Source of the DNA: Candidatus Cybelea septentrionalis
GTDB taxonomy: Bacteria; Vulcanimicrobiota; Vulcanimicrobiia; Vulcanimicrobiales; Vulcanimicrobiaceae
Length of the DNA: 40,088 bases
Direction: 5' to 3'
Assembly (NCBI GenBank): GCA_003158175.1
Contig: PMHJ01000038.1
Span: 6,214 to 46,301, forward strand
How positions within the stretch are numbered: position 1 is the first letter of the stretch; the number at the start of each line of letters is the position of its first letter. A model generated the notes under the pieces. The model saw nothing but the letters and a program-made list of their open reading frames with translations, did no database searches and had not been told where the DNA came from. Positions 1 through 2,954 of this stretch are shown here, in pieces. The position numbers and the translations under genes are program-made.

Positions 1-2954
1 CTGCGATGATTGCGGATGACGCGCAGCATCGGATCGCGGTTTGCCTCGAAGCGCGCGAATGGGCCGAGCTGCTGCGCCATTTCGGCGGACGTCCGGTACG
101 CGGCGCCGGTCATCAGCGACGTGATTGCGGCACACCAGCCGAAGCCTTCCTCGGAATCGTAGGGCAAGCCCAGCCGCATCAACAGCGTGCCGAGATTTGC
201 ATATCCGAGCCCCAGCGTTCGGTAGCCATGATTCTTTTCAGCGATCCGCCTCGACGGCATCTGCCCCATCGTTACCGAGATCTCGAGCGTCGTCGTCCAG
301 ATCCGAGCCGCTTGAGCAAAGCGCTTCGCATCGAAATTGCCATCATCGTTGAGGAATTTGACGAGGTTTAAGCTTGCCAAATTGCAGTTGTGCGCAATCA
401 TGCCTTCGGCGATTACCGAATGCGTGACGGGTTCGGTCACATCATAGACGGTCGTCGTGCCGTCGGGGACCACCGACACGACCTTCGGCGAGCGTGGGTT
501 CTTGAGCTGAGCGTCGAACTCGCCGGCCAAAATCTCGCGAGCCTTGAGCTCCTTTTCCGCCGAACACGGGAAGCCGATCAGGGAGTTAAACTTCCGCGAC
601 TGTTGGTTATAGAGGTGTAGTTGACCTTGCGGATTTTTGCGGCCTTGTGGGTGCGCCCACGAAATGCGCGACGTGATCCCGAGATCGCTTAAAAGAAGCT
701 GGGCAGACCGAAGCAACGCGGGCGAGGAAGATGCCAGCATCACTTCTTTTTCTGCCGCGGCGCCGTTCGCGCGAATGCAGCCGTCGGCCGAAAAGAGTCC
801 CTGCAGATAGGCAACCTTGAGATCTTCGGGCACCCGGTGAATCGCGCTGGGGACGTCCTTATAAAGAGCCGTCGCTTGTTTAAAGCCGTAGCGCGTTTCT
901 AGATGGGAGACGAGCGATGCTTGCGACGCACTCGTCTGCATGACGCCGTTGCTCTGTACGGAGACCTGGCTGGATCGAGCATCCATTCTGGAGCCAGCGA
1001 CATTGACCGCCGCCACCTTCAGGTCGTTCAGCTGCGCGGTCATGAACTCCGCGGTGCGGCGCTCGCGCGGACCGAAGACGAGCGCAACCGTATCCTTATT
1101 GAAGACGCCGTCACCCGTGAGCCACCCGAGCATCTGCCAGCGCTTGACGTCGGCCGCATCGGAGGCAAACGTTACGGAATTACCTGACTCGCGAATCGTA
1201 ATGCGATCCAGACCCAGTTTGAGTTCGTCGAGCCGTTTCCAGCCGTTGTCGGCAGTCAGGAACTTGTGGTCGCCGGTGGCGCGAATCTCGCGGCCATCGG
1301 CCAGCTTCATGCGGAAGACCTCGCGCTCGCCGACCTTCGTTATATAGGCTGGCCGATGGGCACTGAGTCTGCGATGATCGACCTCCGAATGAATGTCGGT
1401 CGTAACGAGGACGCGCTGCCCCGACTCTTGCCGTTCGTAAAGCTCTTCGACGGTCCGTAGGCCGTCGGGCGTGCTGATACGCGTTTCAGGCCCGAAGCAC
1501 GCGGTATCATCTATAAAAACATACTCTGAGCATGGATTGGTGGCGTTGATTCGGTCGTCGTTGGAACAGGTGTGCCATTCTTGGATCGTGTCGTCGAACT
1601 GTAAGCCGGGATCCGCGCACTGCCACGCGGCGACGGCAATCTGCTCCCAGAGGTCGCGCGCCTTTATGCGTTTGACGACGTCGCCGGTGGTGCGCGCGGT
1701 CAACAGCCAGTCCTCGTCGCGGTCGAGCGCATCGAAAAAACCGTTCGTCAGGCGCACGGAGTTGTTGGAGTTCTGCCCGGAGACCGTGATATAGGCTTCG
1801 GAGTCCCACGCCGTGTCGTACTGCTCGATCTCCAAACGCGTATAGCCTTGGCGCGCGTAATCCAGCGCGCTCTGCGCCGCACCGGGAGGAACCCCGGCAT
1901 TGATCGCGTCGCGAATGGCGATGCGTAGCGATGCATTGAGAGCCGGATCGAGGCGCGCGTGGTCGGGAACGCGCGTGTCGTGAGCGGCCGAAATGATGGC
2001 GTTGAGCTGCTTCTCAAAAATGCGCGAGCCGATGACTAAATCGGCCACCTTGCGCTCTTCGCGAACCTTCCAATTGACGAACTCTTCGATATCGGGGTGA
2101 TCCGCATTGAGCACGACCATCTTGGCGGCGCGGCGCGTCGTCCCGCCCGATTTGATTGCGCCGGCCGCGCGATCGAAGACTCGCAGAAACGACATCAAAC
2201 CGCTCGACGTGCCGCCGCCGGTCAGCTTCTCTCCTGCGGACCGAAGCTTTGAAAAGTTGGCTCCGCTGCCCGAGCCGCCCTTGAAAATCCGCGCCTCTCT
2301 CAGGACGCCATCGAAGATGCCGCCCTCGTTGACGAGATCGTCTTCGATTCCAAGGATATAACAAGCGCTGACCTGGGGATGCGAAAAGGTGTCGGCCGAC
2401 GCTCGTGCCGTTTCGTCGGACGGATCGACGTACCAGTGCCCTTGCGCTGGGCCGGAAATTCCGTACGCCCAATGCAGGCCGGTGTTGAACCATTGCGGCG
2501 AGTTGGGCGCGCCGATTTGGCGCGCGAGCATCGCGCACATTTCGTCGAAGTAAACGCGCGCGTCGTCTTCCGAATCGAAGTAGCCGTACTTCCAGCCGTA
2601 GTACGTCCAGCATCCCGCCATTCGGTTGAAGACCTGGCGCGCATCGCGCTCGGGCCCGAACTGCTCGTCGCGAGGCAGGGCCTCCAGTGCGCTGCCGTCG
2701 GCCATCGAGCGCTGGAGCCAATCCGGGACGCCCTCCTCGGCAACTCGCGTGATGCACCTTGGAACGCCGGCTTTCCGACAGTACTTTTGCGCGAGCACGT
2801 CAACGGCGACCTGACTCCACGAGGCGGGAACCATAACGTCGGGCGCCTCGAAGATCACGGATCCGTCGGGGTTGACGATGCGCGAGGTCCGCGGCTCGAA
2901 AACGACGCCGGCATACGGGTTATCGGAGGTGGAATAGGTGCGCGAAAACTTCAT
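1..2954 (-). CDS. nrdJ: Class II (B12-dependent) ribonucleotide reductase with intein, 3' end beyond window
   Basis: Reduces ribonucleotides to deoxyribonucleotides using adenosylcobalamin in the cytoplasm. The frame is open from an ATG at 2954 to the left edge (984 codons visible). A GAGGAG Shine-Dalgarno lies 6 nt upstream of the start. The N-terminus has the NrdJ pattern NPDGSVIFE (residues 28-36) and AQKY (55-58). C198 matches the first redox cysteine, and N473-P-C475-S-E477 is the active-site motif in which C475 should hold the thiyl radical. A glycine-rich stretch (KGGSGSGANFSKLRS) and a GGGTSSG motif are also typical. Residues 486-856 are an intein; the host resumes with CNLASLNLVKF, so the ligated product would read DDTA-CNLASLNL, the normal family sequence. 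About 128 host residues follow before the edge. The C-terminal redox cysteines and any zinc ribbon are off-window. No ATP-cone is visible at the N-terminus. Confidence 0.95.
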   Translation of the reverse strand, partial: MKFSRTYSTSDNPYAGVVFEPRTSRIVNPDGSVIFEAPDVMVPASWSQVAVDVLAQKYCRKAGVPRCITRVAEEGVPDWLQRSMADGSALEALPRDEQFGPERDARQVFNRMAGCWTYYGWKYGYFDSEDDARVYFDEMCAMLARQIGAPNSPQWFNTGLHWAYGISGPAQGHWYVDPSDETARASADTFSHPQVSACYILGIEDDLVNEGGIFDGVLREARIFKGGSGSGANFSKLRSAGEKLTGGGTSSGLMSFLRVFDRAAGAIKSGGTTRRAAKMVVLNADHPDIEEFVNWKVREERKVADLVIGSRIFEKQLNAIISAAHDTRVPDHARLDPALNASLRIAIRDAINAGVPPGAAQSALDYARQGYTRLEIEQYDTAWDSEAYITVSGQNSNNSVRLTNGFFDALDRDEDWLLTARTTGDVVKRIKARDLWEQIAVAAWQCADPGLQFDDTIQEWHTCSNDDRINATNPCSEYVFIDDTACFGPETRISTPDGLRTVEELYERQESGQRVLVTTDIHSEVDHRRLSAHRPAYITKVGEREVFRMKLADGREIRATGDHKFLTADNGWKRLDELKLGLDRITIRESGNSVTFASDAADVKRWQMLGWLTGDGVFNKDTVALVFGPRERRTAEFMTAQLNDLKVAAVNVAGSRMDARSSQVSVQSNGVMQTSASQASLVSHLETRYGFKQATALYKDVPSAIHRVPEDLKVAYLQGLFSADGCIRANGAAAEKEVMLASSSPALLRSAQLLLSDLGITSRISWAHPQGRKNPQGQLHLYNQQSRKFNSLIGFPCSAEKELKAREILAGEFDAQLKNPRSPKVVSVVPDGTTTVYDVTEPVTHSVIAEGMIAHNCNLASLNLVKFLNDDGNFDAKRFAQAARIWTTTLEISVTMGQMPSRRIAEKNHGYRTLGLGYANLGTLLMRLGLPYDSEEGFGWCAAITSLMTGAAYRTSAEMAQQLGPFARFEANRDPMLRVIRNHR
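387..1499 (-). other. Intein with LAGLIDADG homing endonuclease in nrdJ (371 residues)
   Basis: An in-frame protein-splicing element inside NrdJ. It starts with C1 (CFGPETRISTPDGL, block A) and ends with H370-N371 followed by Cys +1 of the host (MIAHN|C, block G). Block B is ATGDHKF near residues 74-80 and block F is VYDVTEPVTHSVIAEG near 351-366. Two LAGLIDADG-like helices are visible: LGWLTGDGV (124-132) and YLQGLFSADG (231-240), each with the acidic residue in place. All splicing residues (C1, the block B His, the penultimate His, Asn371 and Cys+1) are intact, so splicing is expected. Whether the endonuclease cuts DNA cannot be told, but its acidic residues are preserved and the frame is open. 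Insertion follows A485, ten residues after the catalytic cysteine, in the most conserved part of the enzyme, as is usual for inteins. Confidence 0.95.

Follow-up and report, generated by a model that had tools for sequence, protein, structure and literature searches.

The nrdJ gene of Candidatus Cybelea septentrionalis (Candidatus Eremiobacterota, or Vulcanimicrobiota), encoding a ribonucleotide reductase (RNR), is interrupted by a 371-residue insert that, judged from its sequence, is almost certainly a mobile, full-length class 1 intein of the RIR1 type with a LAGLIDADG endonuclease. The kind is already known, and the 371-residue intein is a new member of it. For this intein we demonstrate splicing and endonuclease motifs, precisely empty sites, an endonuclease domain kept by purifying selection, and a spread that is both patchy and cross-phylum. 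The analysis covered a stretch of 40,088 nucleotides, here called the window (contig PMHJ01000038.1, or C25, positions 6,214 to 46,301).

The host gene and its insert

The minus-strand frame, taken to be open through nrdJ in a preliminary description of the window, runs without a stop from GTG 3011 as far as the window edge, the probable start being ATG 2954. It comprises the following features.

1500..2954, minus strand: NrdJ N-extein, residues 1-485 (PF08471, PF02867), with alternative start GTG 3011
1530..1532, minus strand: codon of C475 in NPCSEY, the thiyl-radical cysteine, aligning with C322 of 1xje
387..1499, minus strand: predicted intein, 371 residues, with LAGLIDADG homing endonuclease domain (Pfam/NCBIfam models, empty sites)
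1461..1499, minus strand: splicing block A, intein residues 1-13, with putative nucleophile Cys1 (Cys1 in 24/24 aligned homologues)
1254..1298, minus strand: splicing block B, residues 68-82, with T75 and H78 of TxxH (both in 24/24 homologues)
1107..1127, minus strand: LAGLIDADG motif 1, GWLTGDG, residues 125-131, with D130 (Asp in 23/24, Glu in 1/24)
780..800, minus strand: LAGLIDADG motif 2, GLFSADG, residues 234-240, with D239 (Asp in 24/24)
405..449, minus strand: splicing block F, residues 351-365, with D353 (24/24) and H360 (21/24; Arg in 3/24)
387..404, minus strand: splicing block G, residues 366-371, ending in His370-Asn371 (both in 24/24)
384..386, minus strand: +1 Cys, C486 of spliced NrdJ, a redox-active catalytic cysteine, aligning with C333 of 1xje
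3..386, minus strand: first part of the NrdJ C-extein, ended by the window edge; the gene continues on C25 below 6214

The host is a class II NrdJ, with the B12-type N-terminal domain, barrel domain, NPCxE loop and redox cysteine pair all present. Both PF08471 (134.1 bits) and PF02867 (273.1 bits) score over their cut-offs; the model PRK07562 scores 966.8 bits, its best stretch being residues 1-486, and stays below its whole-protein cut-off of 1737 since the window truncates the protein and the insert interrupts it. Residues C134, C322 and C333 of Thermotoga maritima NrdJ (1xje) align with reference C198, C475 and C486, and we take C333 to have a catalytic redox role. NPCXE is the finger-loop motif, and the cysteine pair lies on strands A and F, according to PMC9669993.

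Translation of 387-1499 yields exactly 371 residues, CFGPET...GMIAHN, followed by the Cys of CNLASLNL, in exact agreement with the earlier account of a segment running from Cys to His-Asn before the Cys of DDTA-CNLASLNL. The insert follows A485 (P0002 numbering) and adjoins the radical cysteine C475 of NPCSEY, which bears out a class II host interrupted in its active-site region ten residues after C475. That account was right on the intein; it missed both a second intein in the gene and the fact that the +1 residue is itself the catalytic cysteine C486.

Class 1 residues Cys1, T75, H78, D353, H370 and N371 are invariant in 24/24 intein homologues, and Cys occupies both position 1 and position +1, within the class 1 set of Cys, Ser or Thr; the roles of these residues, including the block B Thr and His, follow the class 1 mechanism in PMC4031507. 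Pfam Intein_splicing (52.2 bits, cut-off 35.8), TIGR01445 intein_Nterm (54.4 bits, cut-off 24.5) and Pfam LAGLIDADG_3 (PF14528; 50.4 bits, cut-off 22.5) recognise the insert, the last at intein residues 227-309, the second repeat. Hint_2 reaches 24.1 bits, under its cut-off of 28.4, and solved inteins such as 4o1r are matched by sequence at 6.5e-10. GWLTGDG and GLFSADG lie between the splicing blocks, as first described, and with D130 and D239 both present the copy appears intact in its splicing and endonuclease motifs. Selection on the endonuclease domain is purifying, with dN/dS about 0.1 (seven pairs compared: 0.07-0.12 in six, while one was saturated and its dS not estimable), approximately as low as in the N-terminal splicing part (0.05-0.18). 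A search of the same genome for a second copy of the intein gave only a 47-residue match (E 0.19) with a stop inside.

Spread and divergence from the host

The host organism is a soil bacterium. Within its class, 18 of 117 genomes have intein matches, 17 of them complete and one cut at a contig end. Among 23 loci in named genomes (one cut at its start), 21 are NrdJ with an intein at site 485, under seven phylum names including Eremiobacterota and one archaeal phylum; the same-site intein occurs in records labelled Chloroflexi, Deltaproteobacteria, Chlorobiota, Rokubacteria, Methylomirabilota and Diapherotrites. A search of an open-licence library turned up no paper joining "intein" with "Eremiobacterota".

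The intein is more similar than its host in 26/26 pairs between the main Eremiobacterota set (13 rows) and Chloroflexi, and again in 26/26 pairs between that set and family f3. Against the deltaproteobacterium the count is even (6/13), and against the Chlorobiota row it is 9/13; the Diapherotrites copy is the opposite, with the intein at 44%, the host at 62%, and the intein above the host in 0/13 pairs. Between Rokubacteria and Methylomirabilota, the intein is 87% identical and the right extein 67%. In trees, the intein clade of G025, G026, G034 and G038 has support of 93/94 (22 rows), below the level that the tool marks with a star. This clade is rejected by the extein data (p 0.0007 with 22 rows, 0.0004 with 24 rows) and the extein clade is not rejected by the intein data (p 0.094 and 0.083, respectively), the groups in these tests having been chosen after the trees were seen. 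The 22-row trees leave out L090 and L092, whose left extein is contaminated by a neighbouring intein in the 24-row trees and the pair counts. With only one of the two test directions significant, we rejected the trees alone as proof of transfer.

Could the intein splice, with a dead endonuclease, vertical inheritance, and loss accounting for its patchiness? Vertical descent predicts an intein usually more diverged than its host, as found within the main Eremiobacterota set, where the intein is the more similar in only 7/78 pairs, and the intein data do not reject the host clade. However, the endonuclease part is under the purifying selection described above, its motif Asp are kept in 23/24 and 24/24 homologues, and between some classes and phyla, Rokubacteria and Methylomirabilota among them, the intein is closer than the host. 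We regard this reading as unlikely. Since the intein is closer than its host in several records from other phyla and patchy within the class, its spread points to horizontal homing.

None of the 29 stretches that matched a pattern in a scan of viral_contigs encodes a relative of the intein; the scan thus revealed no inter-phylum carrier. The intein matched 32 phage records, all at less than 60% identity (the best 15 of 32 at 22-24%), and 220 plasmid records, also all below 60% (the best 15 of 220 at 23-28%, of which 14 are annotated RecA or LAGLIDADG). Phage carriage was rejected on the viral_contigs result, the distance of the phage matches, and the location of the one phage intein examined, that of SPBc2, at another site.

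Insertion sites and empty alleles

A second intein, of 432 aa, lies in the same nrdJ gene at C25:4811-6106, just outside the window. A 2-N gap at C25:6212-6213 touches the window edge; in its region landmarks are 10 apart here versus 87 bases apart in the five relatives measured. Across the nrdJ family there are seven insertion sites, with up to four inteins per gene. We counted occupancy by junction peptides in 38 nrdJ rows: site 485 holds a complete insert in 9, is clearly empty in 24 and is undecidable in 5, and at site 197, where the junction is highly variable, 17/38 rows are undecided. By this count G009b at 474 and 485 and G040 at 675 are not empty, and truncated inteins run off contig ends in G009b (485), G040 (675), and G039b and G039c (474).

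In the Vulcanimicrobiota class, inteins at sites 474 and 197 use C475 and C198, the remaining two catalytic cysteines, as their +1 residues, and in G038 and L079 all three catalytic-cysteine sites (197, 474 and 485) are filled in one open gene each. An NrdJ invaded at all three catalytic cysteines, each the +1 of a different intein, might have its active site assembled only by three splicings and its maturation redox-gated, a speculation we hold to be decidedly improbable.

A switch proper, in which splicing through catalytic cysteines would be redox-sensitive and active NrdJ would be made only in a reducing cell, strikes us as very improbable. It would fit the use of redox cysteine C486 as +1 nucleophile, together with C198 and C475 at the other two sites, and the finding of nrdJ as the only RNR large-subunit gene in the genome (NrdD was searched for there and not found). 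Conditional splicing is a topic of the literature, and PMC8772380 has the Aquifex R2 intein altering metal loading. Yet three same-genus genomes (G001, G008 and G010) have all seven sites empty, so the enzyme manages without such a switch.

Together with G003 and G004, these genomes encode NrdJ proteins 85-88% identical to the host and without the 371 residues: query residues 1-486 are followed directly by 857-984. The preliminary description had proposed alignment with intein-free NrdJ as a check, and the alignment places a gap of exactly 371 after A485, the insert following reference residue 485 with nothing deleted. It had also named relatives using the segment as a normal NrdJ domain as grounds for refutation; the five same-genus genomes do without it. 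The open frame, together with sites that are exactly empty, excludes both a normal domain and a pseudogene; a domain retained in the enzyme would suit an uninterrupted frame that keeps register with the host, but has virtually no chance of being correct given close homologues without the insert at the exact point, solved class II enzymes (7b9p, 1xje) that align through it uninterrupted, intein models over cut-off, and the separation of two catalytic cysteines that the insert would cause.

Related inteins, mechanism and meaning

A close comparison to the predicted intein is the PRK08332 model of class II NrdJ with RIR1 inteins, which we take to represent Pyrococcus/Thermococcus enzymes. It scores 74.8 bits against the intein alone (residues 49-371), and one continuous match takes in the intein, its C-terminal junction and the host sequence beyond (P0002 534-973 to model 936-1373), which implies an intein at the same junction in PRK08332; the window protein is far below the whole-protein cut-off of 2400. 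The SPbeta bnrdE intein (Bacillus phage SPBc2), annotated as putative, likewise interrupts a large RNR subunit and is 23.3% identical over all 371 residues. However, it lies at NL/CSEV, the equivalent of site 474 rather than 485, in a class Ib NrdE (the class being named in related phage records) rather than a class II enzyme. The NrdJ-1 intein sits at the NPC/SEI site. It too has an NrdJ host, but is split, whereas the window intein is one piece. In Azotobacter chroococcum, nrdJa has a LAGLIDADG-3 intein in a B12-dependent RNR, at host residues 321-690, absent from the A. vinelandii orthologue; the likeness is by description in PMC4465626. The Aquifex aeolicus NrdB (R2) intein also lies at a catalytic centre with Cys at the C-extein junction and splices in a foreign host, although its host is the small, di-iron subunit, unrelated to NrdJ (PMC8772380).

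That the intein splices, cuts and homes, and why it chose this site, we infer from sequence. NrdJ and the intein would be translated as one precursor, in which the splicing domain (blocks A, B, F and G) would fold and Cys1 would form a thioester at A485/Cys1. The +1 Cys, the host's own catalytic C486, would take over the N-extein, Asn371 would cyclise with the help of His370, and an S-to-N shift would then give a continuous NrdJ that again has C486. In nrdJ alleles that lack the intein, the LAGLIDADG domain would cleave the DNA encoding DDTA-CNLA, and repair would copy the intein into the break. The site spans a codon in which the enzyme tolerates no change; for that reason the target could hardly escape by mutation, and any imprecise loss would be lethal.

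Taken alone, this intein is unremarkable, and others like it are well known. With seven sites, up to four inteins per gene, filled and empty alleles within a genus and seven phylum names, the family is a natural set for studying intein spread and is suited to asking why inteins choose catalytic residues. Its three sites at catalytic cysteines offer a clean test of whether inteins settle at positions that the host is unable to mutate, and let one ask whether splicing at redox cysteines regulates DNA-precursor synthesis.

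An intein in the sole detected ribonucleotide reductase large-subunit gene

On the minus strand of the window, an open frame extends from 3011, with its probable ATG start at 2954, as far as the window edge, and residues 486-856 of the protein read from that ATG form a 371-residue insert (window 387-1499). The insert begins with CFGPETRIS and ends with EGMIAHN, after which the host sequence resumes with CNLASLNL. Its flanks are those of NrdJ, a class II, B12-dependent ribonucleotide reductase (RNR), with PF08471 and PF02867 above cut-off. The best stretch for PRK07562 comprises residues 1-486; the window protein scores below the whole-protein cut-offs of both PRK07562 and TIGR02504, as its interruption and its truncation at the window edge would lead one to expect. 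The RNR large-subunit barrel family has four matches in the assembly (93.97% complete), all of them pieces of this nrdJ, and no match to NrdD was found there; nrdJ is therefore probably the sole RNR large-subunit gene of this genome, about 6% of which is absent from the assembly.

Two Pfam families score above cut-off within the insert, the intein splicing domain at 52.2 bits (35.8 required) and LAGLIDADG_3 at 50.4 bits (22.5 required), with Hint_2 under its cut-off, and the NCBIfam model intein_Nterm covers intein residues 1-82 (54.4 bits; cut-off 24.5). The closest solved chains by sequence are the DnaB, DnaE and RecA inteins. Across 24 aligned allelic inteins, the class 1 residues Cys1, T75, H78, D353, H370 and N371 are invariant, with roles assigned as in PMC4031507; the endonuclease aspartates are retained in 23 of 24 and 24 of 24, bearing out the preliminary description of an intein intact in both splicing and endonuclease motifs. 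The block F histidine is present in 21 of the 24. For the endonuclease part, dN/dS was 0.07-0.12 in six pairs, a seventh being saturated for synonymous change. Judged from sequence, a splicing, homing class 1 intein is the best account of the insert; this kind of element is already known, and the window copy is a further example.

The window protein was matched in 35 of 41 genomes searched (its own and 40 relatives). Five genomes of the same genus (G001, G003, G004, G008 and G010), 85-88% identical over residues 1-486, match that stretch and then directly residues 857-984, with zero DNA between. An alignment tolerant of long inserts placed the 371 residues after residue 485 of the intein-free reference NrdJ, by which insertion sites are numbered here, with no host residue lost; the gap of exactly 371 residues foreseen in the earlier account was thus found.

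Two further features lie in the same gene on contig C25, which carries the window:

C25:4811-6106 (locus L034): second intein, 432 residues, between PTG and TIG, just outside the window
C25:6212-6213: two N in the assembly, between the two nrdJ inteins, touching window position 1

The 432-residue intein scores above both Pfam cut-offs, with 36.7 for Intein_splicing (cut-off 35.8) and 70.8 for LAGLIDADG_3 (cut-off 22.5). At E 0.01 or better, intein_Nterm has two matches in the genome, one of which is this intein. Landmarks flanking the two N are 10 bases apart in this contig versus 87 in the five relatives measured; the spot is probably an assembly gap, and the gene therefore lies in two frames.

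Insertion sites and spread of the site-485 allele

The 35 matching genomes yielded 38 nrdJ stretches, the window's included, with seven insertion sites among them.

Insertion sites in nrdJ (38 rows, each a contig; genome G009 gives two and G039 three)
Site: complete insert, clearly empty, undecided
197: 10, 11, 17
229: 4, 28, 6
474: 12, 20, 6
485: 9, 24, 5
675: 6, 26, 6
881: 4, 25, 9
1015: 1, 27, 10

The undecided rows include inteins truncated at contig ends in G009b (485), G040 (675), and G039b and G039c (474). The nrdJ of G016 holds four inteins in a single open frame of 2791 residues. The site-1015 insert (294 aa; L048 2340-3221, minus strand) has intein-like ends, starting CFTGDTRF and ending GVLTGN before C, and matched no family model in Pfam or NCBIfam. 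At L090 2132-2527, a short intein-like insert between NP and C ends YVSRG before CGEQ, lacking the usual C-terminal His-Asn, and the insert at the same place in L092 has a terminal His-Gln. In L035 (G014), the NrdJ match shifts frame between NrdJ residues 163 and 207, through a frameshift or an assembly fault. The incomplete genome G009 carries two different NrdJ genes, on contigs C123 and C184 (L056, L057), one about 60% identical to that of the window (62 and 57% beside the site) and the other 95% over the matched stretch; this is perhaps a mixed bin.

By model search, 18 of the 117 genomes of the class carry the site-485 allele, one of them as a truncated piece, and, at a stricter limit, so do 18 of 149 genomes of the phylum, one of these outside the class; readable nrdJ was checked in 41 of the genomes behind these counts (the window's own and 40 relatives). 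A single scan of named genomes with two peptide patterns, which misses more distant copies, gave 23 loci out of 98 stretches, 21 of them with NrdJ carrying an intein at site 485 and two yielding no NrdJ; one locus, L086, is cut at its start. By the depositors' own labels, the loci belong to Eremiobacterota, WPS-2, unplaced bacteria, Chloroflexi (3), Deltaproteobacteria, Proteobacteria, Chlorobiota, Rokubacteria, Methylomirabilota and Diapherotrites; the Proteobacteria-labelled L087 is G034, of the same class as the window's genome.

Divergence of intein and host

The window's intein is 66% identical to that of Chloroflexi CSP1-4 and 68% to that of G034, versus 52% and 56% for the right extein, the host sequence C-terminal of the intein. 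The host is closer in G014 (intein 91%, right extein 99%) and G023 (73%, 86%); the G016 intein is 90% identical to the window's. G014 and G016 both belong to the same genus as the window's genome. Between the 13 rows of the main Eremiobacterota set and others, identity was higher for the intein than for the host in 26 of 26 pairs with Chloroflexi, 26/26 with family f3, 9/13 with the Chlorobiota row, 6/13 with the deltaproteobacterium, 0/26 with family f2 and 0/13 with the archaeon, and within the 13 rows in 7 of 78 pairs. The site-485 inteins of L090 (Rokubacteria) and L092 (Methylomirabilota) are 87% identical, their right exteins 67%. The intein-tree grouping of G025, G026, G034 and G038 (support 93/94) was rejected by the extein data (p 0.0007); the extein-tree grouping was not rejected by the intein data (p 0.094). 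We read these comparisons and discordant trees as a mixture, with some nodes reflecting lateral movement and others vertical descent.

Inteins at the catalytic cysteines

Residues C198, C475 and C486 of the intein-free NrdJ of G010 align to C134, C322 and C333 of Thermotoga maritima NrdJ (1xje), which we take to be the redox cysteine, the radical cysteine and the second redox cysteine, respectively. The +1 residues of the inteins at sites 197, 474 and 485 are exactly C198, C475 and C486; with seven sites drawn blindly from the protein's 162 Cys, Ser and Thr residues, the probability of hitting all three would be about 5 in 100,000. According to PMC9669993, the catalytic cysteine of class II enzymes sits in NPCXE, and enzymes of classes I and II both employ a pair of cysteines located on strands A and F. 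A class 1 intein at site 485, predicted to splice and to home, could be kept there because its +1 residue is a catalytic cysteine.

One of the three cysteine sites is filled in the window's nrdJ. Elsewhere, all three are filled within one gene:

L050 1700-5341: nrdJ holding its own intein at each of the three catalytic cysteines
L079 1541-5119: nrdJ likewise interrupted by a different intein at each of the three

The inserts, each set in one open frame, measure 250, 372 and 372 residues in G038 and 165, 365 and 373 in L079, which has a further 432 at site 675. All five inserts scanned, the three of G038 and two of L079's four, passed an intein cut-off. Among the titles and abstract openings listed by searches of an open-licence library, we found no report of a single gene with a distinct intein at each of its three catalytic cysteines. 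Catalytic and ligand-binding positions are a known preference of intein sites, according to PMC5874633, so the occupation of the three cysteines is an extreme form of a known rule and not proof of a new function. That all three catalytic cysteines of one gene are taken by separate inteins is a point that specialists may not expect.
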